Assembly (NCBI GenBank): GCA_012841375.1
Contig: DUUV01000155.1
Span: forward strand, 1 to 37,787
DNA: 37,787 nt
Source of the DNA: Candidatus Fermentithermobacillaceae bacterium
Lineage (GTDB): Bacteria > Bacillota > Sulfobacillia > Fermentithermobacillales > Fermentithermobacillaceae
Reading direction: 5' to 3'
A model generated the notes under the pieces. The model saw only the letters and a program-made list of their open reading frames with translations, was not told the origin of the DNA and searched no databases. The position numbers and the translations under genes were made by a program. Position 1 is the first letter of the stretch, and each line of letters begins with the position of its first letter. Positions 6,016-37,257 of the stretch are shown piece after piece.

Positions 6016-6027
6016 AAGGGTTGAGCG

Positions 6028-6630
6028 ATGGGAGTAAGAGTACTGGACTACTTGCGGTTTCAAGAGGCGGCGATCCTCGGTTTGGAAAGCGCCCGGGCGG
6101 TCCTTTCGGCTTTCACCGGGAGGCCCCTGAGGCTTCAGGCAGTCCAAACCGATTACGTTGAGCTCACCGCGGTACCTCTCCTTTCGGGTCCGCCCGAAGA
6201 GGTGGTCCTCAGCTCTTACGTGACTTTCGCCGGAGACGTTGAGGGGCAGCTCTTGATCCTCTTCAGGCCCGATTCGGCGGAGAAATTGGCGGGCGTCTTG
6301 GCGCCCCATATCCTGGAGTCGGTTCCGGACCACGAGATACCTGCGCTCATGGATTCGCTCATTGGGGAGGTAGCCAACATAGTGGGTTCGTCGGTCCTGA
6401 ACAAAGTGGCCGATGGGTTCGACATAAAGATTCTCCCCATCCCTCCCGTCATGATCCGGGAGATGGCAGGTGCGGTCTTGGGTTCTGCCATGTCTTACGC
6501 GGGTTCAGACGGTGACGCGACGTACGTAGCATACATGAAGGTCACACTCGATGAAGAACAGGCGTCTTTTGACATCGTATTTCTGCCCAGGTTGGGCAGC
6601 TCGAAAGACGGATTCTGGAACACGGAGTAG
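6028..6630 (+). CDS. cheC: CheC-family CheY-P phosphatase
   Basis: CheC dephosphorylates CheY-P and binds CheD in Bacillus-type chemotaxis. The 200-residue protein carries one clear phosphatase motif of the form S-x3-E-x2-N-x22-P: S110, E114, N117 and P140 within MDSLIGEVANIVGSSVLNK. The first motif that two-site CheC proteins carry near the N-terminus is degenerate here (FQEAAILGLESARAVLS lacks the Asn). The gene lies between cheA and cheD, the usual CheC place. The ATG follows GGGTTGAGCG, a modest ribosome site. Confidence 0.9.
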   Translation: MGVRVLDYLRFQEAAILGLESARAVLSAFTGRPLRLQAVQTDYVELTAVPLLSGPPEEVVLSSYVTFAGDVEGQLLILFRPDSAEKLAGVLAPHILESVPDHEIPALMDSLIGEVANIVGSSVLNKVADGFDIKILPIPPVMIREMAGAVLGSAMSYAGSDGDATYVAYMKVTLDEEQASFDIVFLPRLGSSKDGFWNTE

Positions 6631-6635
6631 CCGGG

Positions 6636-7157
6636 ATGCCCAATCAGCTGGTTGTCGGTCTTGCCGAGGTTAAGTGGTCGGTTGTTCAGGAGGACGTGTT
6701 AGTGGCGTTCTCGCTCGGTTCATGTGTCGGAGTGGCGCTGTGGGATCCGGTCTTGAGGGCCGGGGCCCTTGCCCATGTCGTGTTGCCTTCGGCAAAGGGC
6801 CGGCCGTGGCAGGATGGACCCGGGCCATCAAGAGAGCCTCCCCGTCCTGAGAAGCCGGGCAAGTACGCCGCTACCGCCGTTTCGTATGCCGCTCGCTGCC
6901 TCACCCTTATCGGAGGCGATCCGGCGAGGATGCGGGTGTGGGTGGCAGGAGGGGCTCACGTGCTTCGAGGAGTCACCTTGCCGGGCGGAGATATCGGGGC
7001 GGCCAACGTCCGGGCGGTCAAGGAGGCTCTGAAGAGAGAGGGTTTCCCTCCACCAAGGGAGGATGTGGGCGAGGATTACGGCCGCACCATGAAGCTCTAT
7101 GTAGGCGAAGGAAAGGTTACCGTGTACTCGGTCTCGCGCGGCGAACGAGAGATATAG
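6636..7157 (+). CDS. cheD: Chemoreceptor glutamine deamidase CheD
   Basis: CheD deamidates glutamines of chemoreceptors and, in Bacillus, is controlled by CheC. The predicted nucleophile Cys30 (FSLGSCVGVALWD) and His47 (GALAHVVLP) are present, as is the C-terminal DVGEDYGRTM signature. At 173 residues it is of normal size, with a slightly enlarged Pro-rich loop at about 50-70. It begins 5 nt after cheC, which fits translational coupling of the interacting pair. No receptor gene, its substrate, occurs in the window. Confidence 0.93.
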   Translation: MPNQLVVGLAEVKWSVVQEDVLVAFSLGSCVGVALWDPVLRAGALAHVVLPSAKGRPWQDGPGPSREPPRPEKPGKYAATAVSYAARCLTLIGGDPARMRVWVAGGAHVLRGVTLPGGDIGAANVRAVKEALKREGFPPPREDVGEDYGRTMKLYVGEGKVTVYSVSRGEREI

Positions 7158-7200
7158 AAGACAGACAGTCTCGATGGGCATAGGAGGCCATCTCGAAAGG

Positions 7201-7572
7201 GTGAGGATCTTGCCAAAGGTTTTGGTTGTCGACGATGCCATGTTCATGCGCACCAAGGCCTCAAAACTGTTGACCCAGGAAGGCTACGAGGTGATTGAGG
7301 CTCCCAATGGGGCTGAAGCCGTTGAGGTGTACAAGGCTCAAAAGCCTGACCTGGTGCTCATGGACATCACCATGCCTGTCATGGACGGCATCGAGGCCGT
7401 GAAGGCCATCAAGAGCCACGACGGCGACGCCAAGGTGATCATGGTCACTGCTTTGGGGCAGAGGAGTATGGTTCTGGAGGCTATCCGGGCAGGCGCGAAA
7501 GACTTTGTCGTAAAGCCCTTTCAGCCCGATAAGCTCATCGAGGCAGTGAGACGACTGTGCCCGATCGCCTGA
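7201..7572 (+). CDS. cheY: Response regulator CheY
   Basis: This single receiver-domain protein has all phosphorylation residues: Asp11-Asp12, phospho-acceptor Asp55 in LVLMDITMP, Thr83 and Lys105 in FVVKPF. It has no output domain and sits in the che operon, so it should be the flagellar-motor regulator. The start is uncertain. GTG 7201 has AGGAGG 13 nt upstream, TTG 7210 (giving MPKVLVVDD) has GGTGAGG close upstream, and ATG 7174 lacks a ribosome site. Length is about 120 residues, as usual for CheY. The stop overlaps the cheB start. Confidence 0.94.
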   Translation: MRILPKVLVVDDAMFMRTKASKLLTQEGYEVIEAPNGAEAVEVYKAQKPDLVLMDITMPVMDGIEAVKAIKSHDGDAKVIMVTALGQRSMVLEAIRAGAKDFVVKPFQPDKLIEAVRRLCPIA

Positions 7573-8642
7573 GAGGAAGAGAACCCGGGACGGTAACCGT
7601 CCTAATCGCGGACGACTCTGTCTTCATGCGGCACATGCTGCGGCGGGCTCTGGGGCGGCATCCCCGGATAGAAGTGATCGCCGAAGCCCGGGATGGGTCG
7701 GAGGCGTTTCAGAAGAACCGGGAAGTAAAGCCTGATGTAATCGTTCTGGATGTTGAGATGCCGCGGATGGATGGGTTGTCGGCGCTCAAGGCGATAATGG
7801 CAGACAGGCCGGTCCCGGTCGTCATGTTTTCGTCGCTGACTCACACGGGAGCCCGGATCACGCTGGAAGCCCTCTCGTTGGGGGCCGTCGATTTCCTGCC
7901 GAAACCGAAATCCGGGTTTGAGTTGGATCGGGCTGCCGAAGAACTCTGCCAGAAGGTGTTGGCGTCGGCTTCGGCCAGACCCAGGGTAAGGACCGACCGT
8001 GGGGACGTCGGCGCAGATGGGGCAGGCGGCAGTCGCCCGGAGCCGCGCCATAGGGATTCCAGAGAAGCCGATTGGCTTGTCGTGATCGGCAGTTCGACCG
8101 GGGGTCCGCAGGCCCTGGATGACTTGATCCCCGACCTTCCAGGAGACTTACGCTCTGGCGTCATAGTCTGCCAGCACATGCCGGCAGGTTTCACCTCCTC
8201 AATGGCCAGGAGACTGGACGCCGAATCGGCGCTTACAGTCCGGGAAGCCGCCGCCGGAGAGGTGGTCGTGACCGGGGAAGTCCTTGTAGCCCCCGGGGGG
8301 TACCACCTGAGAGTGCTGCCGGACGGGAGCGGCCCTGCGGCCAAGGTGGCGAAAGACGAAGGTCCTCTGGTCCACGGAGTGAGGCCGGCGGTAGACGTGA
8401 CGCTGATGGACGCGGCTCCCATATTCGGGGACAAGCTCATGGTGGTCATCCTCTCAGGGATGGGGACGGATGGAGCCAAAGGAGCGAAAGTAGCCAAGGA
8501 TCACGGCGCCAAAGTGATAGTGCAGGATGAGAACACGTCGGTTGTGTGGGGCATGCCGAGAGCCTGCTATGAACTGGGGATCTGTGATAAGGTTTTGCCC
8601 CTTGGCCAAATCGCGGAAGAGATAGCGCATTTTCCGGTTTAG
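7557..8642 (+). CDS. cheB: Chemoreceptor methylesterase/deamidase CheB
   Basis: CheB removes methyl groups from receptors when phosphorylated. The N-terminal receiver domain has Asp19-Asp20 and phospho-acceptor Asp65 in VIVLDVEMP. After a charged Gly-rich linker (about 140-172), the esterase domain has the triad Ser180 (VIGSSTGG), His207 (CQHMPAGFT) and Asp305 (SGMGTDGAKG). It has 361 residues, normal for CheB. The GTG at 7557 lies inside the end of cheY and is the only reasonable start before the VTVLIADDS strand, implying translational coupling. Confidence 0.95.
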   Translation: MPDRLRGREPGTVTVLIADDSVFMRHMLRRALGRHPRIEVIAEARDGSEAFQKNREVKPDVIVLDVEMPRMDGLSALKAIMADRPVPVVMFSSLTHTGARITLEALSLGAVDFLPKPKSGFELDRAAEELCQKVLASASARPRVRTDRGDVGADGAGGSRPEPRHRDSREADWLVVIGSSTGGPQALDDLIPDLPGDLRSGVIVCQHMPAGFTSSMARRLDAESALTVREAAAGEVVVTGEVLVAPGGYHLRVLPDGSGPAAKVAKDEGPLVHGVRPAVDVTLMDAAPIFGDKLMVVILSGMGTDGAKGAKVAKDHGAKVIVQDENTSVVWGMPRACYELGICDKVLPLGQIAEEIAHFPV

Positions 8643-8670
8643 GTTTTCAGAAAGGAACGGGAAGAGGTAA

Positions 8671-9486
8671 GTGGCGAGGGAACTCATTGATGACTGGGAT
8701 GACATCCATGCGTACGGGGCTGATTACGTCCATCTGTGTATGAGACTCAAGAGGCTCACGGGGATCGACCTTTCCTCGTATAAGTCTCGACAGATGCACC
8801 GCCGCCTCCAAAACTACCGGAGCCGCCAAGGGTTCCCCGACTTCTACACCCTTTCGATTGCCATTCAGCGAGATGGCCGGCAACTCGATGCTTTGGTGGA
8901 CTTCCTTACGATCAACGTTTCCGAGTTCTTTAGAAACCCTGAGCACTGGAAGGTGCTTTCCGAGTCGATACTCCCCGGGTTGATCGCGTACCGCAACGGC
9001 CGAAAAGTCCGTATCTGGAGCGCCGGGTCATCGGGGGGGCAGGAGGCTTACTCCCTGGCCATTGCCGCGTTGGAGGCCGGGGGAACACCGGAAATCCTCG
9101 GGACCGACATTGACGAACCGAGCCTGGCGAAAGCCAAGGCCGGGGTCTATTCTGCCGATGAAGTCAAGGGAGTGAGCAGGGTGTACCTCGCGCGGTACTT
9201 TGAGCGGCGCGACGAAGGGTACCGTGTACGCGAGGTCCTGAGGTGGGCGGTTTCGTTTCGAAGAGGGAATCTACTGGTGGATGAGTATCCCCGGGATTTG
9301 GACCTCACCGTCTGCAGAAACGTGCTGATTTACTTCACAGAGCAGGGAAAACAGCGGGTCTTGACGGGCCTGGCCGGTTCCTTGAGGCGCGGGGGGGTTC
9401 TTTTCACCGGCGCCACCGAGGCGGTCTTCAACCCTTCATCTTATGGGCTAAGCCAGATCCATCCGTTTTTCTATCAGCGTCAATAG
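8671..9486 (+). CDS. cheR: Chemoreceptor methyltransferase CheR
   Basis: CheR methylates receptor glutamates using S-adenosylmethionine. The 271-residue protein has the N-terminal helical CheR domain (LKRLTGIDLSSYKSRQMHRR), FLTINVSEFFRNPEHW, the SAM-binding loop WSAGSSGGQEAYSLA, GTDIDEPSL, and CRNVLIYFTEQGKQRVL, in family order. The SAM loop more often reads GCSTGEEPYS; the variant here keeps the glycines. GTG 8671 follows GAAGAGGTAA. It lies 28 nt after cheB and 13 nt before the cheX-like gene. Confidence 0.95.
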   Translation: MARELIDDWDDIHAYGADYVHLCMRLKRLTGIDLSSYKSRQMHRRLQNYRSRQGFPDFYTLSIAIQRDGRQLDALVDFLTINVSEFFRNPEHWKVLSESILPGLIAYRNGRKVRIWSAGSSGGQEAYSLAIAALEAGGTPEILGTDIDEPSLAKAKAGVYSADEVKGVSRVYLARYFERRDEGYRVREVLRWAVSFRRGNLLVDEYPRDLDLTVCRNVLIYFTEQGKQRVLTGLAGSLRRGGVLFTGATEAVFNPSSYGLSQIHPFFYQRQ

Positions 9487-15772: not shown

Positions 15773-15954
15773 CCGAGTGATGAGTGTCATGTAGGCGGAG
15801 CGGTTGGGCGTGAGTTCGTGTAACCCGGATTTCTCGGCCTTAAGAGAATGGGCTGAGCGGGCGGAAGGAGTATTTAGGTAGGCGAAGAACAAGGGACTGA
15901 GAGTTTTGGAGCACGGAAACGGAGATCTGACTACGTGCCTTGGGGGAGTTACGT

Positions 15955-16680
15955 TTGGATGAGCCCATTCTACGCACCGTGAACCTCCGGAAATCCTTCT
16001 TCTTGGGGCAGACGATTTACGCTGTCAACGATGTAAATCTGCAGGTCGATCAGGGTGAGTTCGTAGTGATCATGGGTCCGTCGGGGAGCGGCAAGAGTAC
16101 TCTGTTGGCGCTTCTCGGCGGGTTGGACCGCCCTCAATCGGGCGACGTGATCCTGGGAGGGGAGAGGTACTCCAAACTCTCGGAGAACGGGCTTGCCAGG
16201 ATCAGGCGGAACAAAGTGGGGTTTGTATTTCAGTTCTTCAACCTCATACCTCACCTTACAGCCCTTGAGAACGTCATGCTACCCATGAGATTTGGCGGTA
16301 AAGGCAAGCGCGAAATGGAGGAGCGGGCCAAGGAGCTGCTGGATATCGTCGGTTTAGGCGCCAGGAAAGATCACAAACCGCTCGAACTGTCGGGAGGGGA
16401 GCAACAGCGGGTGGCTATCGCCAGGGCCCTTGCCAACGAGCCCGACGTGGTCCTTGCCGACGAGCCTACGGGAAATTTGGACCGAAAGACTTCTTCGGAG
16501 ATCGGGGAGATATTCCACAATCTAAACAAGGAAAAAGGACAGACCTTCATTGTTGTCTCCCACGACCCATCCCTCGCTAAGTGGGCCCACAGGGTAGTGC
16601 ATATCCTGGACGGCCGGATCACGGAGATAACCGGGGGAGGCTTGGAAGGGGCGTCCCTCACCGCTCCGGCGAACCCATAG
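15955..16680 (+). CDS. MacB/LolD-type ABC transporter ATPase (first copy)
   Basis: This ATPase of about 241 residues has the Walker A motif GPSGSGKST, the Q-loop VFQFFNLIPHLTALENV, the signature LSGGEQQRVAIARAL, the Walker B motif VVLADEPTGNLD and the H-loop VVSHD, all intact. The FNLIPxLTAxENV and ADEPTGNLD patterns place it with MacB, LolD and FtsE-like ATPases that work with FtsX-fold permeases rather than with classical six-helix importers. TTG 15955 has GGGGGAG 6 nt upstream; TTG 15940 is an alternative. No permease adjoins it. The next genes are a MutL-like and a barrel-sandwich protein, and the permeases lie 3.6 kb downstream beside a second ATPase that is very similar in motif content. 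Confidence 0.93.
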   Translation: MDEPILRTVNLRKSFFLGQTIYAVNDVNLQVDQGEFVVIMGPSGSGKSTLLALLGGLDRPQSGDVILGGERYSKLSENGLARIRRNKVGFVFQFFNLIPHLTALENVMLPMRFGGKGKREMEERAKELLDIVGLGARKDHKPLELSGGEQQRVAIARALANEPDVVLADEPTGNLDRKTSSEIGEIFHNLNKEKGQTFIVVSHDPSLAKWAHRVVHILDGRITEITGGGLEGASLTAPANP

Positions 16681-16752
16681 GAAGGGCTGCGGCGGCAATT
16701 TCCGCGTTCGGGAGTAAGCGCGTCCGCAGGCCCAAATATCCGGGAGGTTAAT

Positions 16753-18474
16753 ATGGCCAACGACTACATCCACTTGGATATCGGGAGTACCGTTACCCAG
16801 GCCAAGGCATGGGAGAGGTCCGCCCAAGGGATCAACCTGGTCGGGTCCGCGACTGCTCCCACACCTCCGGCCCTGGGCAATACTGATTTGACCGGAGGCG
16901 CCCACTTGGCCTATTCGGAACTCAAGGACAAAGTGGAACGCTCGGGGAGAAGATTTGATCCGCAAGACATACTGGTGACCGTGAGCGCCGCGGGTGAGCC
17001 GAGGGTCGTGTGCGCCGGAGTCGTCAAGGGCATTTCCGGCGAATCGTCCAAGCGCGCGGCTCTGGCGGCGGGAGCCACTGTGACCGATCTTATTACCGTA
17101 GACGACGGCCGCCACGAGTACCAGCGAGTAACGGACCTTAGAAGGCAGGATATCTCCATGGTGGTCATGGCCGGAGGGGTTGACGAAGAGATCCTGGGAC
17201 AAGGCCGCCACCAGCTTTTCAACGTGGCAAAGGTAATAGCCGCAGGCCTGCCCGGGCGGCTGGGCGATGGGAAGAAGGTCCCGGTCGTCTACGCCGCGTC
17301 GCTGGAGGGCCGTGAGGAAGTGTCGAGGATCTTCGGCGATTCAGTGGAAGTGGTGTGGGCCGAGAATGTGCGTGCTCGCCTGGAAGAAGAGCACCTCGAT
17401 TCGGCTAGGGATGCCATAGTAGGTGTGTTCTCTTCCGGGATCCGCCACGACGCCAGGTTCTCGGGCCTCGGACGGTTCGGCGCCGCGACGGTTCTTCCCA
17501 CCGGACACTCTATAGGTTTGGAAGTCGTGAACATGGCGGGCTCCCTCGGTGAGGACGTGATGGTCATCTCGCTGGACGGAGACACGGTCCAAGTGTTTTC
17601 CCAGATTAGAGGGGTGTTCACTAGAACCGTGAGTTCCGTGGCGCGTTTAGAGGCCAAGGATGCCGCTGAGTGGCTTCCGTCCCGTCGACTGGCGGAACGT
17701 CTCGACGACATCCTCGCCAACTGGAAGCGGAACCCCGGAGTGCTCCCGAGGTCTTGGGATGATCTGGCTGTCTATCTTGCCATCCAGAAACAGGTTGTCC
17801 GCGAGGCCCTTGACGAGCACTCGCGAAGCGCCATAGAACTCCGGGGCATCCACAGGCAGCGCCAAGTTGGCGAGACCTTTACTGTGGGCGTTAAAGGAGG
17901 AGACACTCTGGTCAGGATGGAGCGCATAGGTTCGGTCTTCCTGACCGGGTTCCTCGCGGGAATTCTCTCGCCGGTAGCGCTCGTTTCCATCGCGACCGAC
18001 GCCTTAGGACTCCACGGCGTGACTAAACTTTACGCCGACAGAGACGGCATACTACCCTCCTTGGGAGTCTTCGGAGGAGATTTGGTGGCTGCTCCCGAGT
18101 CGTTCCTTACTCCCGCCGGCGTGATTCTGAGCCCCGGCAAGAACGAAGAACGTGTGAAGGACAGGTGGGCCGTAATGAGGACCGACTCCCGGCTCGAAGA
18201 GTTGCCCGTAACGAGCGGGGAGATTCGGGCCGTTGTGATTCCGGCTCCCGACTCTACCTGGCTCGAACTGCATCCATCTTCAAAAGGAGACGTAGGCGCC
18301 GGAGAAGGCCGGAGGCATGTGACTCCGGCGAAAGGTTTCCATTTCGCCTATGTCGATGCCAGGCTGCGCCACAGGAAGCCGCAAGACCCGTACCGCGAGA
18401 ACCGTAGGGGGTACAGGGCGCTCGGTGTGTTCCCTGACGGTGTCCTTGACGGATGGGAAAGGGGGATGGAGTGA
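16753..18474 (+). CDS. Glutamate mutase L (MutL/GlmL)-family ASKHA protein, divergent copy
   Basis: The 573-residue protein belongs to the MutL/GlmL group of the actin/Hsp70/sugar-kinase fold. Known members sit beside B12-dependent mutases and are thought to act as chaperone or reactivase ATPases. Phosphate loop 1 is DIGSTVTQ (residues 9-16), with Gln where the usual Lys follows Thr. The family SSAGG region reads SAAGEPR (78-84). The second phosphate loop, normally DIGGATTD, reads ISLDGDTVQVFS (272-283) and lacks the GG-A-T-T-D pattern, so ATP hydrolysis may be impaired. The C-terminal half still carries RQVGETFTVGVKGGDTLVRM, matching the paralogue at 23434. ATG 16753 follows GGGAGG. Its stop overlaps the next start by one base. 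No mutase gene is nearby. Confidence 0.82.
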   Translation: MANDYIHLDIGSTVTQAKAWERSAQGINLVGSATAPTPPALGNTDLTGGAHLAYSELKDKVERSGRRFDPQDILVTVSAAGEPRVVCAGVVKGISGESSKRAALAAGATVTDLITVDDGRHEYQRVTDLRRQDISMVVMAGGVDEEILGQGRHQLFNVAKVIAAGLPGRLGDGKKVPVVYAASLEGREEVSRIFGDSVEVVWAENVRARLEEEHLDSARDAIVGVFSSGIRHDARFSGLGRFGAATVLPTGHSIGLEVVNMAGSLGEDVMVISLDGDTVQVFSQIRGVFTRTVSSVARLEAKDAAEWLPSRRLAERLDDILANWKRNPGVLPRSWDDLAVYLAIQKQVVREALDEHSRSAIELRGIHRQRQVGETFTVGVKGGDTLVRMERIGSVFLTGFLAGILSPVALVSIATDALGLHGVTKLYADRDGILPSLGVFGGDLVAAPESFLTPAGVILSPGKNEERVKDRWAVMRTDSRLEELPVTSGEIRAVVIPAPDSTWLELHPSSKGDVGAGEGRRHVTPAKGFHFAYVDARLRHRKPQDPYRENRRGYRALGVFPDGVLDGWERGME

Positions 18475-19811
18475 TGGCCGTGTATGCTTTGATCCGGCCT
18501 CGGGTTATCAGGAATGCTTTGGTGAAGAGGCTCCGGGTCTTCCCGTCCGTCGGCGAGTCACTGGTTTCCCCCGGGGCAAAGGTTGATGCCGGCAGCATAC
18601 TCGGGAAGTACGCTTCCCGACAGCGTCTCAGGTTTGTAAGGATGGAGACGTCCGGCGAAAGGATTACCGCCACTGTACTGGTAGCCGAGGGTCAGAAGGT
18701 CAAGCGGGGGGAAGTCCTGGGTTATTACTCTTACCTGTTTGGCCTCGGTTACACTGAATACACGTCACCTTGCGACGGAGAGGTAGTGGCGATCAGCCAA
18801 GCGACGGGACGCGTGTCCATCAAAGAGGAGCCTTCCGCGCTGGCGAGCCATCTTCCTGGAACGGTCGAGCATGTAGACGAAGCCATCGGCGTGTGGGTAC
18901 GTTTCCGTGGGGACATTGTCCCCGGGGCCGCCGGAGCCGGCTTTGCCAGGTCGGGGACTCTCATAAGGAAAGTGGAAAGCCCGGACCAGCCGGTGTCTCC
19001 TCAGAAGATCGGTCCGGAGGATGCGGACCTCGTCCTCCTCGCAGGTTCCACAGTGAGTAAAGAACTCCTGGAGGCGTGCCTAAGGTACCGTGTGGCGGGG
19101 ATCATCGCGGGAAGCGCCGCCTCCAGTGTAATGAAGTGGTACGAAAGCCTTGCTCAAGACCTGGACTGGGACGAGTTCCTGGCAAGGTACTGGGCAAGGG
19201 AACTCAGAAAGAAAGACGCCGTCGTGCCGCGCCCCACCGAGATCGTGCCGGCCTTGGTGCTCACCGAAGGGTACGGAAACATGCCCATGTCGGGTGAAGC
19301 CTTCGAACTCCTGTCGTCTTGCGAGGGCGAACGGGTCTTTGTGGACGGCGCGAGCCTTGTAGGCGCCGCCTTGGGCAGAGGGGATGCCGGACCGTGTGCG
19401 ATCATTCCCTTTGCGGGCGCCGTCGACGGGGAAGTTACGGACGACGGTGTGGGGGGTGGCGCCGGTCGTGCTGCCGGTGCTGCGGCTGGTGCCGGTGCCG
19501 CTCGTGTTGGTGCCACCAGTGCCGGTGCTGCTGTTGGTGATGCTGCCGTTGGTGGTGCCGCCGGTATCGGTGCTGTCGTTGGTGGATTCGGCCATCCGGC
19601 CGGGCGGTCCGCGGCTCTCAGAGAGTTGGCGCCGGGTGTGAGGGTCTGCGTTTGTGGCCTCACTCAGGATCCTGTTGAAGGGACTGTTGAAGGTCTGGCC
19701 CAGGAGGATTCTGCCCTTCCGGTGGGCATCCCGGTGACTTCGGTTCGTGTCGTCACCCTCAGCGGAGAGCACCTGACGGTCCCGGCCTCAAATATCCGGC
19801 TCCTCGAATAG
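18474..19811 (+). CDS. Barrel-sandwich-hybrid (lipoyl-like) / KOW-like protein, first copy
   Basis: I know no characterised relative. The 445-residue protein has hybrid-barrel segments early on, including SPCDGEVVAI at 98-107 and VSPGAKVDAGSILGKY near the N-terminus. These resemble biotinyl/lipoyl or membrane-fusion-adaptor barrels but have no visible modified-lysine motif. A Rossmann-like part (about 175-305) contains TEGYGNMPMS around 264-273. A long Gly/Ala tract (about 323-374) leads into a C-terminal SH3/KOW-like segment. It is a paralogue of the protein at 25259: SPCDG, EG-Y/F-G-x-MPM and the C-terminal segment align. No signal peptide or membrane segment is visible. ATG 18474 overlaps the MutL-like stop (GTGATG) and has GGGGGATGGAG upstream. 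Confidence 0.75.
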   Translation: MAVYALIRPRVIRNALVKRLRVFPSVGESLVSPGAKVDAGSILGKYASRQRLRFVRMETSGERITATVLVAEGQKVKRGEVLGYYSYLFGLGYTEYTSPCDGEVVAISQATGRVSIKEEPSALASHLPGTVEHVDEAIGVWVRFRGDIVPGAAGAGFARSGTLIRKVESPDQPVSPQKIGPEDADLVLLAGSTVSKELLEACLRYRVAGIIAGSAASSVMKWYESLAQDLDWDEFLARYWARELRKKDAVVPRPTEIVPALVLTEGYGNMPMSGEAFELLSSCEGERVFVDGASLVGAALGRGDAGPCAIIPFAGAVDGEVTDDGVGGGAGRAAGAAAGAGAARVGATSAGAAVGDAAVGGAAGIGAVVGGFGHPAGRSAALRELAPGVRVCVCGLTQDPVEGTVEGLAQEDSALPVGIPVTSVRVVTLSGEHLTVPASNIRLLE

Positions 19812-19867
19812 CTCGGTGCTCGAGGCTGGGCCCGCTCAAGCAAGGCAAAGCTTCTTTGGTGTTAGGG

Positions 19868-20022
19868 TGGGGCTACGTCCTCATGCCTGCGCCTCCAATG
19901 GGCATGACGTCCCGGGTCGGCGCTTTCAGTGGGTATGACGCCCCATGTCGGCGCGTTTGATGGGTACCACATCCCGTGCAATCGGCCTTGGTGGGTACTA
20001 CGTCCCCATGCTATTTGGTCGA
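19868..20022. repeat. Five tandem copies of a degenerate 31-bp repeat
   Basis: Units start at 19868, 19899, 19930, 19961 and 19992, each exactly 31 bp. A shared core reads roughly TGGGTAyGACGTCCC followed by a variable part often containing TCGGCGC. There are no unique spacers, so it is not a CRISPR array. It lies in the 488-nt gap 19812-20299, which otherwise holds two short direct repeats, small hairpins and no supported gene. Confidence 0.8.
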
Positions 20023-20078
20023 GTCCCTGCCCTCCTACCCGGGGTTCGGAATTCGACATTCAGCCCAATCGCTTCAGT

Positions 20079-20108
20079 GATCATTAGGTCTCAAAGGGAT
20101 CATTAGGT
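20079..20108. repeat. Two 11-bp direct repeats, operator-like
   Basis: GATCATTAGGT occurs at 20079-20089 and again at 20098-20108, 19 nt apart start to start, about 190 nt before the permease gene. The helical spacing fits a regulator site, but no clear promoter could be recognised beside it. Confidence 0.4.
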
Positions 20109-20299
20109 TCCACAGGAGTCTGCACAAGGGAAGGTTTCCCTACGGTCAATACGGCTATGGCCAGGTCTCGATAAGACCAAATAGAATAATACTGAAAGAC
20201 CAGAAAGGTCAGCCGAGTGAGTGACCTAAGGCGGCCTGCGCCAAGAGCTGAGTCGCGCTACGTAACTCTCGAGAGACGAGAGACGGAGGGGGTGCCTCT

Positions 20300-21913
20300 A
20301 TGGACTTCGTCCGCCTGGCCGTGCGGGACGTAAGGAGGAACGGTTCGCGCACCGCTTTGGCCGTTGCCGCGACTGCCCTGGCCACCGCGATCCTGGTTCT
20401 CTCGAGGTTGGTTCCCCAAGGCTATATGAAATACCAGGCCTTCGCCGAGCGCTCCTTCGCAGGTGCCGATATCGTGGTGTGGAGCGCGCCGGCACATGTC
20501 TACTCAAAGGATGCTTCGCCTCTTGAGTGGAGGCCCTGGTCGGGCGAGGAGTGGCAGTCCTTCGCCGAGTACTTCATCCCCACGCTTCCGTCAGAGGGAT
20601 GCGTCTGTCCCGTAGACTCGCCCCAATGGGGGCCCCTTGAGGTTCAGTCGCTATCATCCCTGATATCTTCCGTGGAGGGCGTTCACAAGGTTTTTCCCTA
20701 CCTGTCTCTTCCGTGTAAGGTGAGAGTGGGGGACGTGTTAGTCGATGCAATCCTCCGCGGGAGGGAGTTCTCAGGACCGGACGAGCAGTTGTCCATGGCG
20801 TGGCAGGTCAAGAGAGGCAGACCCCTTGGGCCCGAAGATGAAGGAGAGTTCAACGCCCTGATCCCCCTGGCAAGCGAACCAAAGATACCTTATGCGCCCG
20901 GCTTTGAGCTGGAACTCAAACTACCGCGTCCGGCGGCCGGGATATCGAATGCGACAGGCACCTCCGGTGTGTCCGGCGCCGGAGGCACCTCTGCTGCGCC
21001 CGGGGCATCTGGGGCACCCGGTGCATCCGGTGCATCATCCATGTTCAGCGCACCAGGTGCTGTCGGTGTGTCTGGTCCGGCAGTGTTCTCTTGGGATGAT
21101 CCTGTGGAAGTGAAGCTCAATCAGGTCGGGGGATACATGGTGGAGTTGGGTACAGTGCCGCTCGATCACGGAGATACCGCCCTGGCACCTTCCGGGCTGT
21201 GGATGAGGCCCGAGATTTTGGTGAGCGAGAAGACATTCCTGGACCTCGTCATGAGAACCGTCCCGTCTTCCGGGGCCCCACCTGCCGGCACCCCCGGCGC
21301 CGCCACAGCCCCTCTTGACAGCGACCCCACCGGAGCTTCCGGCGGCACCCCCATACCTCCGGGGCTGCCCGTTTATCAGATGCTCGTAACCGTGTCTCGC
21401 CACTCAGAGACAAAGGCCGTGGTTGAGAGGCTCCGCCAAGCCGTGGGCCCGGGCTACACCGTGTACGCAATAGTCGAATTGGCAGCCATGAGAAGCGCGG
21501 GAGGGGGGCAACGGCTCATCGCCTCAGACATGTCCGCGCTGCTCAGATGGATGATTATCACAATGGCGGCGGGCATCGTAACGGCCTCGGTCTATGTTCT
21601 TCTGGCCCTCCAGACACGAAAGATCGGCCTACTCCGGGCCATCGGAGCGACATCGAAAGACATAGCCCTGTACGTCCTCTCGGCCGTGGCATACACAACC
21701 CTTACAGGTATAGCCATAGGTTTCATATCCGGAAAACTGGTCGCTCTCACCGTCATATCAGCCACCGATTTCACGGTCCTGGAATGGCTTGCGATGGCAG
21801 GCTATGACGCTCTCCTGTCCCTTTCGGGCATGGCGATACCTCTTGTCCTTGGACTCGCCGTCGCCGTTTGGGCTTCCAGAATCCCTTGCGCGGAGGTGCT
21901 TAGACGTGAGTGA
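20300..21913 (+). CDS. FtsX/MacB-fold ABC permease with large extracytoplasmic domain
   Basis: The 537-residue protein has one N-terminal membrane segment (ALAVAATALATAILVLSRLV, about 14-33), a long extracytoplasmic domain to about 410, and three C-terminal membrane segments holding the FtsX core with RKIGLLRAIGATSKDIALY. This is the topology of MacB and LolC/E permeases, which couple cytoplasmic ATP hydrolysis to movements of the outer domain. The outer domain contains SEGCVCPVDS and two low-complexity Ser/Gly/Ala/Pro insertions (about 213-256 and 321-356), probably flexible loops. ATG 20300 has GGAGGGGGTG upstream. Its end overlaps the next ATPase gene by 8 nt. Confidence 0.9.
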   Translation: MDFVRLAVRDVRRNGSRTALAVAATALATAILVLSRLVPQGYMKYQAFAERSFAGADIVVWSAPAHVYSKDASPLEWRPWSGEEWQSFAEYFIPTLPSEGCVCPVDSPQWGPLEVQSLSSLISSVEGVHKVFPYLSLPCKVRVGDVLVDAILRGREFSGPDEQLSMAWQVKRGRPLGPEDEGEFNALIPLASEPKIPYAPGFELELKLPRPAAGISNATGTSGVSGAGGTSAAPGASGAPGASGASSMFSAPGAVGVSGPAVFSWDDPVEVKLNQVGGYMVELGTVPLDHGDTALAPSGLWMRPEILVSEKTFLDLVMRTVPSSGAPPAGTPGAATAPLDSDPTGASGGTPIPPGLPVYQMLVTVSRHSETKAVVERLRQAVGPGYTVYAIVELAAMRSAGGGQRLIASDMSALLRWMIITMAAGIVTASVYVLLALQTRKIGLLRAIGATSKDIALYVLSAVAYTTLTGIAIGFISGKLVALTVISATDFTVLEWLAMAGYDALLSLSGMAIPLVLGLAVAVWASRIPCAEVLRRE

Positions 21914-22661
21914 GTGGCTTGGACCCATACTGCATTGCCACGAGGTCACAAAACTCTATGCCGTTGGAGACGGGCTGTTTGCCTTGGCCAACGTGGAGTT
22001 CGAGGTGGAAGAGGGGCAGTTCGTCGTCATAACCGGTCCGTCAGGGTCGGGCAAGACGACGCTCCTCAACATCCTGGGCGGCATCGACCGGCCGACTCAC
22101 GGCGAGGTGATCCTCAAGGGGCGCAAGTATTCGCGGATGTCCGAGGACGACCTGGCCCTACTCCGCAGGCGAGACCTGGGAATGGTGTTTCAGTTCTTCA
22201 ACCTTATACCGGAACTCACGGCCGCCGAGAACATAGGTTTCCCCATGAGGCTTCTTGGATGGGACGAAAAGAGGGTGTTGGAAAGGTTGGCGTTTCTCAT
22301 GGACGCCGTGGGGTTAGCCGACAGGGCAAACCACTATCCTCTGGAGCTCTCCGGCGGCGAGCAGCAGCGGGTGGCGATTGCCAGGTCGCTGGCGGTGAAG
22401 CCCTCGGTGGTCTTGGCTGACGAGCCGACCGGCAACCTTGACTCGGCGAAATCCAGGGAAGTCATGGAGCTCATGGCAAAGTTCAATAGGGAGGAACGAC
22501 AGACTTTCGTTGTGGTCACCCATGAGCGTGCGTTTGAGGACTATGCCGACGTCGTAGTCCGGCTCTCAGACGGCAAAGCGGTTGAGAGGAGGGTGATGGG
22601 TGGCGACAGTCGCCATGAAGCAGAGGACAGCCGTACCTCCTGTCCCGTTACACCTTCTTAG
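21906..22661 (+). CDS. MacB/LolD-type ABC transporter ATPase (second copy)
   Basis: The ATPase has about 251 residues with intact Walker A (GPSGSGKTT), Q-loop (VFQFFNLIPELTAAENI), signature (LSGGEQQRVAIARSL), Walker B (VVLADEPTGNLD) and H-loop (VVTHE) motifs. It is clearly paralogous to the ATPase at 15955 and sits between two FtsX-fold permease genes. GTG 21906 is preferred because GGAGGTG lies 7 nt upstream and the protein then starts just before HEVTKLY; a longer reading from 21789 would run through the permease gene. The 3' end overlaps the next permease by 62 nt, with that permease's ribosome site inside this gene. Confidence 0.93.
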   Translation: MSEWLGPILHCHEVTKLYAVGDGLFALANVEFEVEEGQFVVITGPSGSGKTTLLNILGGIDRPTHGEVILKGRKYSRMSEDDLALLRRRDLGMVFQFFNLIPELTAAENIGFPMRLLGWDEKRVLERLAFLMDAVGLADRANHYPLELSGGEQQRVAIARSLAVKPSVVLADEPTGNLDSAKSREVMELMAKFNREERQTFVVVTHERAFEDYADVVVRLSDGKAVERRVMGGDSRHEAEDSRTSCPVTPS

Positions 22662-23415
22662 GACCATTGCCGGGCGGAGAATCAAGGCCTCCAGGGCGGT
22701 GGCCGTTATGGTCTCCCTTTCGACGGCCTTGGCAGTCGCCGCGTCGTTCACGGTTACGGCGATGACAGAGACAATGATCTGGAAGGTAGAGGCAAGGGTA
22801 GTAGGCGGACCTAGCGCCGCTAATGAACGCGATTTAGCCGTCGACATCGGGGAGGCCGGTGACGTCGGTGAGGTCGGTGACGTTGGTGAGGCCGGTGACA
22901 TTGGTGAGGCCGGTGACGTTGGTGAGGCCGGTGAGAAGGGCGGTAGAGCGCTTGGAGCGGCCATGATCCGCCAAGCAGCTCGGGCGGCATTTCTGCCGTG
23001 GCATGTCGTATCGCTGGCCGCGGCTGTGATAGCGCTATCCGGCATATCGTGCGTGCTCTCGGTCGCCTTTGTAGGGAGGAAGAAGAGCCTGGGGGTCCTC
23101 AAGGCTTTGGGTGTCACCACAAGAGACCTGACCAGACTCCTCGCCCTGGAGGCTGTGTACATGGGCGCCTTTGGGCTGCCCGCAGGACTGGCAGGCGGCT
23201 CGGTCGTGACCTCTCTGTACCTTGGGACTCAGGCGATCAGTCTTTGGTGTTTCATATCCTCGACCATCTTCGGCGTCCTATCTCTTGCCTTCGGTGTATA
23301 TCTTCCGGTGTGCCTGGTTAGAAACGCAAGCTGTGCCCAGCTCCTGAACAACAGGCCGGTCTACGCGTTCTCAAACCCATCGTGCGCGCAGTGCGGCCTC
23401 TGCGGCGGATTCTGA
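22600..23415 (+). CDS. Reduced FtsX-fold ABC permease with GEAGDV repeats
   Basis: The 271-residue protein has four predicted membrane segments (about 33-54, 136-158, 182-208, 215-240) and the FtsX core RKKSLGVLKALGVTTRDL at 160-177. In place of the large outer domain of the partner permease it has a loop of about 80 residues, nearly half of it a hexapeptide repeat GEAGDV (84-112). The C-terminus is cytoplasmic by topology and ends in SCAQCGLCGGF, with Cys262, Cys265 and Cys268 in a CxxCxxC arrangement. GTG 22600 has AGGAGGG 6 nt upstream. Next to the full-size permease at 20300 it may form a heterodimer; this is inference. Confidence 0.85.
   Translation: MATVAMKQRTAVPPVPLHLLRTIAGRRIKASRAVAVMVSLSTALAVAASFTVTAMTETMIWKVEARVVGGPSAANERDLAVDIGEAGDVGEVGDVGEAGDIGEAGDVGEAGEKGGRALGAAMIRQAARAAFLPWHVVSLAAAVIALSGISCVLSVAFVGRKKSLGVLKALGVTTRDLTRLLALEAVYMGAFGLPAGLAGGSVVTSLYLGTQAISLWCFISSTIFGVLSLAFGVYLPVCLVRNASCAQLLNNRPVYAFSNPSCAQCGLCGGF
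22849..22935 (+). repeat. In-frame 18-bp minisatellite
   Basis: Nearly five units of GGTGAGGCCGGTGACGTT, at 22849, 22867, 22885, 22903 and a partial one at 22921, differ by only a few bases. They encode (GEAGDV/I)n in the permease loop. The high nucleotide identity points to recent expansion. Confidence 0.9.
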
Positions 23416-23433
23416 TTGTCGGGAGGGAGATAG

Positions 23434-25257
23434 ATGAAAAGGATTTTGGCGGCCGACGTGGGCAGTACCACCACGAAAGCAGCGTTGTTCGTGAAGGATG
23501 CCGGAGGCTGGAGACTGGCCGGAAAGATGGTCGCGCCAACCACTGTGGAGGCTCCCGACCTGGATGTCATGATCGGTCTCCGTAATGCCATAGCCAAACT
23601 CGAGAGGCGGATAGGGGTCAAGCTCCTGGACGGGTCACGGCTCCTCACTCCGGCCGCGGGCGCCGACGGAGCCGATATCATCGTGGCGACTTCCAGCGCC
23701 GGAGGCGGGCTGCAGATGATGGTAACGGGGTTGGTGGGCACCATGACGGCGGAATCAGCCCACCGGGCGGCCCTGGGAGCGGGTGCCGTGGTGTCGGATG
23801 TGGTGTCTCTGGACGACGACCGCACCCTGCTCGAACGGCTTGAGGCGATAAAGGCCGTGAAGCCCGACATGATCCTGCTCACAGGCGGTACCGACGGAGG
23901 AAACATGAGCGACGTCGCGGCCATAGCAGAGTATATCTCGATGGCACGGCCCGAACCCAGGTTTGGTCAGGATTTCCGCATCCCGGTGATCTACGCGGGC
24001 AACGTCCACGCCAGGGACATGGTGGACGAGGTCTTGAGGGAGTCCAACCCCGTCACATACACGGAGAACATCAGGCCGGTCCTGGAAAGCGAAGTCCTCG
24101 GTCCGGCGCGAGAGGAGATCAGCCGGATCTTCTTGGAGCACGTGATGATGAGGGCACCCGGCTACGAGACGCTTGTCGCGTGGGCGGGGGGCGCGGTGAG
24201 GCCTACGCCGATTGCGGTAGGTGAAGCGCTCAAGTACGCGGCGGCGTCTTTCGGTACAAACGTCCTGGCGGCCGACATAGGAGGCGCCACCACAGATGTC
24301 TTCTCAGTCATCGACGGCAGTTTGCACCGAACGGTGTCTGCCAACCTGGGCATGTCCTACAGTATGGCAAACGTCCTCAGCGAGGCCAAACCCGAAGCGA
24401 TCCTCAGATGGCTTCCGTGGGAGGCCGATGAGAACCTGGTCCGCAACTGGCAGTTCAACAAGATGGTGAGGCCGACCACGCTTCCCCAGACGATGGAGGA
24501 TCTCATGCTGGAGCAGGCCATGGCGACCGAAGCCTTACGGTTGTCTCTCGAATATCACAAATCCCTCATCAGGGGCCTCAAGGGAGTCCGCAAGAGACGG
24601 ACCGTCGGGGATGTATTCTTCCAGACCGGCACAGGCGAGACTCTGGTGCGGATGTTGGAGACGGGAGCGATCATCGGCTCAGGAGGAGCTCTTTCCCATG
24701 CGCCGCGCCGCGGCCAGGCGGCCTTCATCATGCTGAACGCCTTCCAGCCCGAAGGTGTGACCGAGCTGTGGGTAGACAACATGTTCCTGCTCCCACACTT
24801 GGGAGTATTGCTGGATACGGCGCAAGACGCAGCCGACGATGCGATCGGAGAGCTTTTCAGCCGTGAGACGCTGGTTCCCGTGGGGACCGCCATCTCGCCG
24901 GTGGGACCCGCTGCGCGCGAGGGGACGGTCATCGCCGACGTGAAGGCAGCGGAAGAGTGTCCCGGCGTGGTTGCGGGTGAGTTGACCGTCATTGGGGTAC
25001 CCGGCGGTGGGTGCGAGGTGGAAGTCCTCCCCAGGAAGGACTACGATGCCGGAAACGGTCCCGGGAAGGCGCTCAGGCACAGGGTCAGGCCGGGAATGCC
25101 GTTTCTCATCCTGGATGGGAGGTCAAGGCCGCTGGAGTTGCCCCGCGACTCCCGCAAGAGAATTGAGAAGGTCAGGAAGTGGCACAAGGCTTTGTCAGCG
25201 TACCCGGAAAGCCAAGACGCGCCCCCGGTCGCGGTTCTGGCCAAGGAGGTGAGCTGA
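23434..25257 (+). CDS. Glutamate mutase L (MutL/GlmL)-family ASKHA ATPase, canonical copy
   Basis: The 607-residue protein carries the full family motif set: phosphate loop 1 ADVGSTTTK (7-15), the ATSSAGGGLQM signature (85-95), ILLTGGTDGGN, PVIYAGNVHARD, phosphate loop 2 ADIGGATTDVFS (280-291), and GDVFFQTGTGETLVRMLE in the C-terminal part. GlmL proteins in clostridia are encoded between glutamate mutase subunits and are thought to reactivate or assemble the B12 enzyme. No mutase gene is present here; instead the gene follows an ABC permease and precedes a barrel-sandwich protein by one base. It is the paralogue of the gene at 16753 and, unlike it, keeps both nucleotide loops. ATG 23434 follows GGGAGGGAGAT. 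Confidence 0.9.
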   Translation: MKRILAADVGSTTTKAALFVKDAGGWRLAGKMVAPTTVEAPDLDVMIGLRNAIAKLERRIGVKLLDGSRLLTPAAGADGADIIVATSSAGGGLQMMVTGLVGTMTAESAHRAALGAGAVVSDVVSLDDDRTLLERLEAIKAVKPDMILLTGGTDGGNMSDVAAIAEYISMARPEPRFGQDFRIPVIYAGNVHARDMVDEVLRESNPVTYTENIRPVLESEVLGPAREEISRIFLEHVMMRAPGYETLVAWAGGAVRPTPIAVGEALKYAAASFGTNVLAADIGGATTDVFSVIDGSLHRTVSANLGMSYSMANVLSEAKPEAILRWLPWEADENLVRNWQFNKMVRPTTLPQTMEDLMLEQAMATEALRLSLEYHKSLIRGLKGVRKRRTVGDVFFQTGTGETLVRMLETGAIIGSGGALSHAPRRGQAAFIMLNAFQPEGVTELWVDNMFLLPHLGVLLDTAQDAADDAIGELFSRETLVPVGTAISPVGPAAREGTVIADVKAAEECPGVVAGELTVIGVPGGGCEVEVLPRKDYDAGNGPGKALRHRVRPGMPFLILDGRSRPLELPRDSRKRIEKVRKWHKALSAYPESQDAPPVAVLAKEVS

Positions 25258-25258
25258 G

Positions 25259-26662
25259 ATGGCGGTGAGCTCCAGTGTGAAGGTCCTGGAGAAGGCCTTT
25301 CTTAAGAAGACACGGAAACTGGCCGTGCCAGGCGAGGTACTGGTCTCCCGGGGACAGAGGGTAGGTCCTGACGACATAATCGCCAAGACCGACCTCGTGC
25401 CGGGTGGCCCAAGGGTTATAGACATCACCGCTGACCTGGGCATAAGGCTCACGCCCGAGCAGCTCGACAAGGTCCTCACCAAGAAGGTGGGCGACAAGGT
25501 GACGCGGAGAGAGGTGCTCGGGACGTATCAGAGATACTTCTGGGAGCCTTCGAGAAGTCTTTACTCTCCGTGTGACGGGACCATTGAGTACATCTCCAAG
25601 ACCCAGAGGCGGATTGTCATACGCGAAGACCCGCGTTCGGCCACCCCCGTCTCGGTAGTGGCCGTAGCCACCAAACTGTCCATCTGGCCTTGGACCATCA
25701 GGATGTACACGGCTGTCACTGAAGGGGATTCGGTCAACGCGGGACAGGTCTTGGCGTCGGCGATGAACATTGGACAGGTGGAGTATGTGTACTCGCCCAT
25801 GGCAGGGCTGGTCGAACGGATATGTCCCAAGACCGGTACCATAACCATAGTCCGACCGGTGAAACCGAGCCAGGTGAAAGCTCACATGGGTGGGGTGGTC
25901 ACCGAGGTCCTGCCCGAAACCGGAGCCGTAGTCGAGGCTACGGGCTCGTACATTGAGGGAGTCTTTGGGGTGGGGGGCGAGCGCTTCGGCGAGATCGTGC
26001 TCGCCACAGACGGTCCGGGGGGTGACCTGGGCGACGCGGGAGTGGACGTCGCCCATAAAGGCAAGGTTCTCGTCGCCGGACGGTCTGTCTCGCTGGAGGC
26101 CCTGAAGAAGGCAAGCATGATCGGCGTACGCGGCATTCTGACCGGCGGCATCAACAACCTGGACCTGGTCCAGTTCTTGGGCAAGGAGATCGTCGTAGGC
26201 ATCACGGGACAGGAAGACACCGACCTCACCATCATAGTGATGGAAGGGTTCGGTCCCATGCCGATGAATGAGAAAGCCTGGAACCTCTTGGCGTCAAGAG
26301 CAGGGAAGACTGCTTCCATAGACGGAACGACCCACATCCGGGCCGGAGCGGTGAGGCCTCAGGTCCTTTTGAGCGATGGAGTCTTGGAGCCGGACGCCTC
26401 TACGGCGCCCTGGCCGGTCGAGGACGTATCCGGGTCAGACCGCCCCCTCATAACGAACCTCACCGTAGGTGACAGGGTAAGGTGCATAAGGCAACCGTAC
26501 TTCGGGCTATGGGGGGTAGTTGAGGAACTGCCCAAGGACCCTGTGGAAGTCGAGTCGGGCTCCTTGATGGAAGTTGCTCTGGTACGGCTAGATGACGGCA
26601 GGGTGGTAACGGTGGCCGAAGCGAACCTGGAGGTCTTCCGGGAACTGGCATCTCCGGCTTAG
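25259..26662 (+). CDS. Barrel-sandwich-hybrid (lipoyl-like) / KOW-like protein, second copy
   Basis: This 467-residue soluble protein has at least two hybrid-barrel segments: YSPCDGTIEYI around 102-112 and YSPMAGLVERICPKTGTITI around 178-197, with VTEGDSVNAGQVLASA between. Such barrels occur in biotinyl/lipoyl carriers and membrane-fusion adaptors, but no MKM or DKA lysine motif is visible. A middle alpha/beta region contains MEGFGPMPMNEKAWNLL (328-344), and the C-terminus (DRVRCIRQPYFGLWGVVEEL) is SH3/KOW-like. It aligns with the protein at 18474 throughout but lacks that protein's Gly/Ala tract. ATG 25259 follows AAGGAGGTGA, one base after the MutL-like stop. Function unknown; the position suggests partnership with the MutL-like ATPase or the ABC complex. 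Confidence 0.8.
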   Translation: MAVSSSVKVLEKAFLKKTRKLAVPGEVLVSRGQRVGPDDIIAKTDLVPGGPRVIDITADLGIRLTPEQLDKVLTKKVGDKVTRREVLGTYQRYFWEPSRSLYSPCDGTIEYISKTQRRIVIREDPRSATPVSVVAVATKLSIWPWTIRMYTAVTEGDSVNAGQVLASAMNIGQVEYVYSPMAGLVERICPKTGTITIVRPVKPSQVKAHMGGVVTEVLPETGAVVEATGSYIEGVFGVGGERFGEIVLATDGPGGDLGDAGVDVAHKGKVLVAGRSVSLEALKKASMIGVRGILTGGINNLDLVQFLGKEIVVGITGQEDTDLTIIVMEGFGPMPMNEKAWNLLASRAGKTASIDGTTHIRAGAVRPQVLLSDGVLEPDASTAPWPVEDVSGSDRPLITNLTVGDRVRCIRQPYFGLWGVVEELPKDPVEVESGSLMEVALVRLDDGRVVTVAEANLEVFRELASPA

Positions 26663-35689: not shown

Positions 35690-36523
35690 GTGTCAGAGTT
35701 TCTGCTTGCTGCTGCTGAAGAAGTCGTGGCTAGGCTAGGCATCTTCCGTCCTGTCGCCAACTGCATCTTCTCGATTCTCATCAGCATCGTCATGATCATC
35801 CTGGTCTACGTGATGATCAGCCGGGCCAGGCGGGGAGAGAAGATCCCGGAGATCCGAAAGATCCCCGGCATCGAAGCTTTCGAAGAGGCCATCGGCCGCG
35901 CCACCGAGATGGGCAAGCCGGTCCACATGACCGACTACAGCACCGCCCTCGGTTCTGACTCCACCTTCGCTTACTGGTCGTTCCTGGCATACATCGCCAA
36001 GCAGTGCGCCCAGTACGACACGAGGTTCATCGCGACCGACGCAAACTACCTGGTAAACGTCGTTAACCAGGAAATCGTGAAGCAGGCCTATTTGGAGGCC
36101 GGCAAACCCGATGCGTACAACCCTGACGATGTAAGGTTCATCGCGGGTTCCCAGTTCGCTTGGGCGATGGGTGTGGCCGGTCTGGTCGGACGTGAAAAAC
36201 CGGCGGCTCAGTTCCTGGTCGGTTACTTCTACGCTGAGTCTCTGATCCTCGCCGAGGCAGGAAACCTCGTAGGAGCCATCCAGGTCGCCGCTGCCAGCTC
36301 TCCGGCCCAGATCCCGTTCTTTGTCGCCGCTTGCGACTACACCATGATCGGTGAGGAGCTTTACGCAGGCGCGGCTTACGTCTCGAGAGACCCGGTCATC
36401 ATGGGTACCGTGGTAGCTCAGGACATCGTCCGAGTTTCGCTGTACGTGATCGTGCTTCTCGGCGGCATTGTCCAGTGGATGTCACCGGAGAACAACTTTA
36501 TCACGACGTTCATCAATTTCTAG
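35690..36523 (+). CDS. DUF6754-type membrane protein
   Basis: The 277-residue protein has a membrane segment near the N-terminus (about 22-44), a cytoplasmic-looking middle with IPGIEAFEEAIGRATEMGKP, typical of DUF6754 proteins, and hydrophobic segments later on, the last at about 245-265 (VSLYVIVLLGGIVQWM). Its function is unknown. GTG 35690 has AGGAGGTGA about 7 nt upstream. It starts a cluster of at least three genes behind its own promoter, so the products probably work together at the membrane. Confidence 0.8.
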   Translation: MSEFLLAAAEEVVARLGIFRPVANCIFSILISIVMIILVYVMISRARRGEKIPEIRKIPGIEAFEEAIGRATEMGKPVHMTDYSTALGSDSTFAYWSFLAYIAKQCAQYDTRFIATDANYLVNVVNQEIVKQAYLEAGKPDAYNPDDVRFIAGSQFAWAMGVAGLVGREKPAAQFLVGYFYAESLILAEAGNLVGAIQVAAASSPAQIPFFVAACDYTMIGEELYAGAAYVSRDPVIMGTVVAQDIVRVSLYVIVLLGGIVQWMSPENNFITTFINF

Positions 36524-36565
36524 CGTCTCCGACACGCGAGCCCTTGTCGGAAGGAGGTGCAGTCG

Positions 36566-37219: not shown

Positions 37220-37257
37220 CCTCGCTCTCACACGGTAGTGGAAAGGAGGGAATAGTT

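Follow-up and report, generated by a model that had tools for sequence, protein, structure and literature searches.

A bacterial locus with candidate paralogous type VII ABC systems and MutL-Bar partners

Introduction

Type VII ABC systems such as LolCDE, MacAB, FtsEX and YbbAP-TesA combine LolD-type ATPases with FtsX-fold permeases that have four transmembrane (TM) helices and extracytoplasmic domains. Their work outside the membrane is done by mechanotransmission, and it is the partner proteins that define them and set their function (PMC12646458). They are understood mainly through partners on the extracytoplasmic side.

FtsA is an ASKHA protein. Its contact with FtsX is made via a cytosolic region of FtsX (PMC11627006). 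GlmL/MutL and Or-4 accessory proteins likewise have the ASKHA fold and belong to the Pfam family MutL (PF13941); GlmL is annotated as a glutamate mutase reactivating chaperone (PMC4682846).

Here we analyse a locus from a heat-loving, uncultured Firmicute, a Candidatus Fermentithermobacillaceae bacterium, in which genes of these two kinds stand together. Ca. Fermentithermobacillus carboniphilus comes from coal-fire vents and represents the class-level division DTU015 of Firmicutes (PMC10215811). The core machine of the locus is of a known kind; its partners are new. We found no description of a type VII ABC combined with a MutL-Bar pair (a MutL-family protein and the barrel-containing protein that we call Bar) in open-licence literature, in line with the first-pass annotation, which had known of no system of such composition.

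Results

Gene calls with Pfam and NCBIfam scans placed eight genes on the plus strand at 15940-26662 of the window, the whole stretch of 37,787 nucleotides that was analysed (table 1). Two encode ABC ATPases of the LolD/MacB type and two FtsX-fold permeases; the other four encode a pair of MutL/GlmL-family ASKHA proteins and a pair of Bar proteins. The eight are flanked by an M20 amidohydrolase gene upstream and a purine operon, HPRT first, downstream. As had been noted before, all eight lie on one strand with overlapping or adjacent starts within each half, the genes overlapping or standing 1-72 bp apart. In the first half, ABC1 and MutLa are separated by 72 bp, and MutLa and BarA overlap by 22 bp. 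In the second, PermA overlaps ABC2 by 8 bp and ABC2 overlaps PermB by 62 bp, followed by spacings of 18 bp (PermB-MutLb) and 1 bp (MutLb-BarB). The earlier count of exactly two of each component held for the ATPases, MutLs and Bars; the permeases make up a single pair, PermA and PermB being unlike subunits of one putative heterodimer.

Table 1. Features of the locus, in window coordinates.
Feature	Position	Strand	Evidence or remark
ABC1 (LolD/MacB-type ATPase, system A; no adjoining permease in window)	15940..16680	+	ABC_tran 125 bits
MutLa (type A MutL-family ASKHA protein)	16753..18474	+	PF13941 150.7 bits
BarA (type A Bar, MutLa partner)	18453..19811	+	Bar profile E 2e-100; no Pfam family match
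Gap between halves, 488 bp	19812..20299	+	stops in all six frames, no plausible gene
PermA (FtsX-fold permease, system B)	20300..21913	+	4 predicted TM, large extracytoplasmic domain
ABC2 (LolD/MacB-type ATPase, system B)	21906..22661	+	ABC_tran 116 bits; GTG start 8 bp inside PermA
PermB (second FtsX-fold permease subunit, system B)	22600..23415	+	short extracytoplasmic part with 18-bp repeat
PermB C-terminal tail CAQCGLCGGF, predicted cytosolic	23383..23412	+	motif CxxCGxCGG[FILV]
MutLb (type B MutL-family ASKHA protein)	23434..25257	+	MutL 375.4 bits
BarB (two barrel-sandwich domains, swivelling beta/beta/alpha domain, KOW domain)	25259..26662	+	predicted structure, profile search

At the place equivalent to the gap between the halves, the family members G002, G003 and G007 and order-mates carry an HTH+TPR regulator gene. 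This gene is absent in the window strain, and a search of its own genome returned a single 65-aa HTH match, located elsewhere. The regulator-less gap holds a 31-bp imperfect repeat (ATGGGTATGACGCCCCAGGTCGGCGCGTTTC) in 2.2 copies at 19898-19966.

The ATPases and permeases were then assigned by family. Walker A (GPSGSGKST), signature (LSGGEQQR) and Walker B motifs are readable in ABC1, copies of which are 81-92% identical in G007 and G003. The top NCBIfam matches of both ABC1 and ABC2 were LolD, MacB, YbbA and FtsE, identifying them as LolD/MacB-type ATPases as found in type VII systems, with scores below the equivalog cut-offs for LolD (254.6 and 230.4 bits versus 307.75) and FtsE (211.9 and 211.4 bits versus 264.85). 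The FtsX Pfam domain was found in PermB (35 bits, cut-off 25.5), while PermA scored just under the cut-off (24.3 bits) with a clear profile relation to PermB; in the permease pair of G001 that is of the type found on contig C38 of the window genome, the domain reached 55 and 35 bits. As in LolC/LolE, the permease would be heterodimeric; ATPase and permease are separate genes, unlike the one-chain architecture of MacB. The locus differs from described type VII systems in its putative cytosolic partners, MutL and Bar, and in the Cys-rich tail of PermB. None of LolA/LolB, MacA, EnvC or TesA was recognised in the window, and an HlyD-type adaptor was seen only in G028.

To examine the association we surveyed 121 genomes of the class, with an alignment threshold of 1e-20 for PermA. 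PermA was present in 38 genomes and Bar in 54. All 38 PermA genomes had Bar, compared with 16 of the 83 others (Fisher P 5e-19, not corrected for relatedness). When 62 PermA genes were read in context, 36 had a same-strand MutL or Bar gene no more than 4.5 kb away; a simple footprint estimate gives about 1 of 62 by chance, and since the genes are related the P value is only indicative. PermA is carried by 14 families, and every one of them has at least one copy linked to MutL-Bar. Gene order varied, from PermA-ABC-PermB-MutL-Bar (L049, L183, L186, L201, L205) and ABC-PermA-PermB-MutL-Bar (L066, L181, L184) to ABC-Bar-ABC-PermB-PermA-MutL-Bar, which indicates that the association is not simply frozen synteny. 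The association of PermA with MutL-Bar is thus beyond chance, real and conserved. The first-pass annotation had proposed such a link between a MacB/LolCDE-like ABC, cytosolic ASKHA proteins and barrel-sandwich proteins, to be doubted if the families were scattered among relatives or if MutL-barrel pairs always lay beside a mutase and near ABC genes by chance. The link was borne out across the 14 families: the pairs are not always mutase-linked and the ABC linkage is not incidental.

The linked systems fall into two types. In the PermA tree, a type A clade of 24 rows (97/96) separated from type B, within which the window PermA lay in a clade of 16 rows (100/100). MutL trees, built with a quick method, gave a type A group with MutLa (SH-aLRT 95), whose outline is less sure because of long branches; MutLb fell into a type B group (39 rows; 94). 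The remaining MutL-Bar pairs fell outside both types and were never ABC-linked in the loci examined. Taking together the observed composition, conservation, co-occurrence, A/B split and folds (below), we read the locus as a pair of paralogous ABC systems of type VII (MacB/LolCDE fold), in which each system would have its own cytosolic MutL-Bar pair in physical complex with it, and give this reading a probability of roughly 55%.

One point against this reading is the wider distribution of MutL-Bar. A collection scan retrieved 80 named loci with a MutLb-type alignment, and in 70 of them, from over 15 phyla, a Bar gene lay within the retrieved stretch. The taxa include Nitrospirota, Planctomycetota, Elusimicrobiota, Latescibacterota, WOR-3, Armatimonadota, Calditrichota, Zixibacteria, Neomarinimicrobiota and Eisenbacteria, as well as a Bdellovibrionales genome and an archaeon (Culexarchaeum), among others. 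The majority of the 80 loci had no LolD-type ABC, so that MutL-Bar without a PermA-type ABC is far commoner across phyla, and the ABC may be just one client. On the upstream side, a 123-aa protein was a frequent neighbour (44 loci). On the downstream side, 35 loci had a DUF6754 membrane protein, a family name that was checked for a single representative; a 5-TM protein was present in 30 loci, and a 280-aa two-TM protein and a 4-TM protein in 29 each. By similarity and TM counts, several loci also had Opp-type ABC pairs with SBP_bac_5-like proteins, and one (L086) had the order MutL, SBP-like, 5-TM, 5-TM, Bar. DUF6754 membrane proteins were often neighbours across phyla, as were MFS genes and ABC genes of the Opp type or type IV.

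Within the class, type B MutL-Bar pairs unlinked to PermA adjoined type IV ABC exporters (f170, G432) or SBP_bac_5 genes (G444, G454, G462, G284). Such neighbours fit a role in membrane transport and not one particular transporter. Judged from its distribution, MutL-Bar is an older module than its ABC-linked branch. A tentative extension, which we consider possible though well short of probable, is that MutL-Bar is an ancient, hitherto unrecognised ATP-driven cytosolic module, with an ASKHA motor and a barrel/KOW adaptor, that serves DUF6754, Opp-type, type IV or VII ABC and MFS machines in more than 15 phyla, the present locus being one specialised branch. We also considered SBP_bac_5 as a bridge, as these proteins occur both beside unlinked MutL-Bar and beside f170 permeases; they are only about 30% identical, which gives no evidence of a single shared partner. 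In four class genomes (L267, L268, L248, L246), type B MutL-Bar was directly followed by one or two exporter genes of the ABC_membrane type, a different ABC class.

We next turned to the half of the locus that has no permease. ABC1-MutLa-BarA occurs in five genomes of the family (G000, G001, G002, G003, G007), and the same five carry a second PermA-PermB pair without an adjoining LolD-type ATPase (L211, L255, L256, L257, L210). This pair was found in 5/5 genomes with MutLa-BarA, four of which are congeneric, versus 0/7 other family genomes tested, and it was placed in the type A permease clade. In G028 (L060), type A permeases with the HlyD-type adaptor lie next to ABC1-MutLa-BarA in divergent orientation. 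Co-occurrence, clade and the G028 layout suggest that the window holds the cytosolic part of system A and the whole of system B, and that the permeases of system A most likely correspond to the PermA2-PermB2 pair, which lies on another contig, C38. Some 11 kb from that pair is a LolD-like ATPase that was considered as its partner; this candidate was weakened by the presence of the same ATPase in G004, which lacks the pair. Separation of parts was also seen for type B: unlinked PermA-ABC-PermB sets with the PermB tail occurred in G445, G454, G455, G469 and G483, with type B MutL-Bar elsewhere in the genome. PermA-unlinked type B MutL-Bar was mostly found in genomes with a tailed PermA-ABC-PermB set elsewhere (these five, G444 and G462); the exceptions were G432, G029 and G284, the latter two, without PermA, counting against the two-system reading.

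The first-pass annotation had suggested a single heteromeric machine. In such a machine both ATPases, permeases, MutLs and Bars would assemble, the b subunits being catalytic and the a subunits degenerate. In the genus and in G007 all eight genes adjoin on a single strand, and G028, G444 and G462 have neighbouring type A and B sets; both points are in its favour, as is the phosphate-2 motif of MutLa, which is degenerate (SLDGDTVQV versus DIGGATTDV in type B) and resembles that of a pseudo-ATPase partner. This interpretation did not hold up well and now appears improbable: the PermA and MutL trees separately gave the same two types, type A has its own permeases while the type A half in the window has none, and five-gene sets of type A (L066, L063) or type B (L049, L183, L186) stand alone in other families.

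The PermB tail and the Bar fold bear on another alternative. The motif CxxCGxCGG[FILV] was found on the PermB adjoining 28 of the 62 PermA genes, always at the extreme C terminus, which from FtsX topology would be cytosolic. Tailed PermBs occur in seven families (f1, f2, f14, f157, f159, f170, f173), and the rest of the protein is often only about 25-40% identical. A DNA pattern for the Cys tail, run over 398 genomes of the phylum, matched in the own genus only; this set drew on about 16 class genomes and the pattern required a terminal F, while reading the loci in the class also gave I, L and V variants and other families.

The predicted BarB structure (pLDDT 90.6) contains a pair of barrel-sandwich domains, along with one swivelling beta/beta/alpha domain and one KOW domain. 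The first barrel domain aligned with RnfC/NqrA at Z about 8 and the other is DUF2118-like (Z 8.4). The swivelling domain came close (Z 9-9.7) to RraA, to the UPF0107/aconitase-X small subunit and to the mobile domain of rifampin phosphotransferase. The KOW domain, which a sequence profile also recovered, matched NusG/Spt5 (Z about 8). No solved chain listed in the structure comparison spans the whole protein. The earlier description of Bar as a barrel-sandwich or lipoyl-fold adaptor therefore fits two of its domains and covers only part of the modelled protein.

MutL-Bar could be an ATP-dependent cofactor or metal maturation factor that loads the PermB tail with metal or Fe-S and so makes the permease redox- or metal-controlled. 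This would be consistent with the confinement of the tail to type B systems (type A PermBs lack it), with the match of the MutLb fold to dehydratase activators and to diol dehydratase reactivase, and with the RnfC/NqrA likeness of Bar. We give it little weight: PermBs of f6, f9, f161 and f176 have no tail although their systems have a type B MutL, Bar has neither the Fe-S nor the flavin domain of RnfC/NqrA, and MutL-Bar occurs in many phyla without the tail.

The MutL proteins themselves form two kinds in the window genome. A Pfam search found six PF13941 copies. Five, including both window copies, are about 570-635 aa long with a Bar gene directly after each. The sixth, on contig C121, has no Bar gene, scored 619 bits against the Or-4 equivalog (cut-off 600), which makes it a positive control for that test, and lies directly after OraE, a subunit of the B12-dependent D-ornithine 4,5-aminomutase. 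One genome thus holds a classical B12-linked MutL and the MutL-Bar kind. Both window MutLs are clear members of the Pfam family (gathering score 27 bits) and fall below the GlmL and Or-4 equivalog cut-offs (475 and 600 bits), with 225 and 214 bits for MutLb and 86 and 82 bits for MutLa. Unlike GlmL and Or-4, they measure about 600 aa, with an extra C-terminal domain and an adjoining Bar gene, and have no mutase neighbour within the window. The absence of mutase, B12 and glutamate-fermentation genes noted before was confirmed for the window by the Pfam/NCBIfam scans; the genome does have B12 enzymes elsewhere, with eight B12-binding matches. That MutL-Bar is an independent B12-mutase helper, or another cytosolic enzyme module merely travelling with envelope genes, is the least probable alternative: GlmL is annotated as a mutase chaperone, the neighbours of the C38 permease pair include MeaB and B12-binding genes (with carboxyltransferase genes and DnaK), and B12-binding domains occur in 17/17 relatives checked, but the B12-linked MutL of the genome is a different protein, the window MutLs miss both equivalogs, and PermA linkage was seen in 14/14 families.

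MutLb belongs to the ASKHA proteins by its fold and its phosphate-binding motifs. Both motifs are intact, and D8, D281 and D288 are each also kept in 148/150 non-A MutLs; in most type A MutLs, at least one conserved phosphate-motif residue is lost. A sequence search of MutLb against solved structures gave no match at E 0.1. In the structure comparison, the MutLb model (pLDDT 88.4) had the ASKHA fold with FtsA at the top of the list (Z 15), followed by 2-hydroxyacyl-CoA dehydratase activators, PilM and acetone carboxylase (Z 13-14). These are too near FtsA to choose between them, so the top rank of FtsA for the model is not discriminating within ASKHA. The extra C-terminal domain of about 130 residues (about 480-590) was barely covered by structural matches.

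Discussion

Under our preferred reading of two paralogous systems, system B would be complete at the locus. PermA and PermB would form a heterodimer in the membrane, driven by two ABC2 subunits through mechanotransmission. MutLb and BarB would bind on the cytosolic side, probably near the Cys-rich tail of PermB. Acting through its own nucleotide cycle, MutL-Bar could regulate or couple the permease as a cytosolic switch or adaptor under ATP control, by analogy with FtsA and FtsX. System A would consist of ABC1, MutLa and BarA at the locus, most likely with PermA2-PermB2 from C38. The work would be done outside the membrane, on cargo that weak hints suggest may be lipid- or peptide-like, the direction likewise being conjectural.

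The proposed arrangement resembles FtsEX-FtsA in placing an ASKHA protein at the cytosolic side of an FtsX-fold permease. Unlike FtsA, MutL is encoded in the ABC operon and accompanied by Bar, and by sequence it is not FtsA; the likeness of the MutLb model to FtsA is one of fold alone. A conserved cytosolic pair, one member of which has an ASKHA ATPase fold, would add a layer of control to type VII ABCs. Since MutL-Bar recurs beside membrane transporters in many phyla, where no role has been described for it, it would also represent a new partner class for such transporters, and many proteins likely annotated as glutamate mutase L gain a different context. The role of MutL-Bar in these phyla becomes directly testable, with the paralogous systems of the window genome as a built-in specificity control.

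Additional observations

Gly/Ala/Ser-rich low-complexity inserts with short tandem repeats occur at 19468-19563 (BarA), 20900-21060 (PermA) and 22847-22935 (PermB). In sister species they are absent or shorter, the Gly/Ala-rich insert of BarA not being seen there. Upstream of the locus, at 3964-9486, the window holds a chemotaxis gene set (cheA, cheX-like, cheD, cheB, cheR).

In two further copies of the same genome (L009 10365-11531, L010 5906-7054), MutL-Bar is followed by a third gene, about 385 aa long and with no Pfam match. We found no mention of DUF6754 (PF20539) in open-licence literature. The family is strongly expanded in the Fermentithermobacillaceae, with seven copies in G000 and up to 14-15 in G004 and G008, compared with one each in G017 and G019 and none in 14 control genomes. 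One copy lies in the window at 35690-36523, followed by a homologue of the 5-TM protein (36557-37219) and, from 37258 onward, the start of the 280-aa two-TM protein. This block (35690-37787) is the one that follows MutL-Bar in many other phyla; here it lies about 9 kb downstream, past the purine operon.
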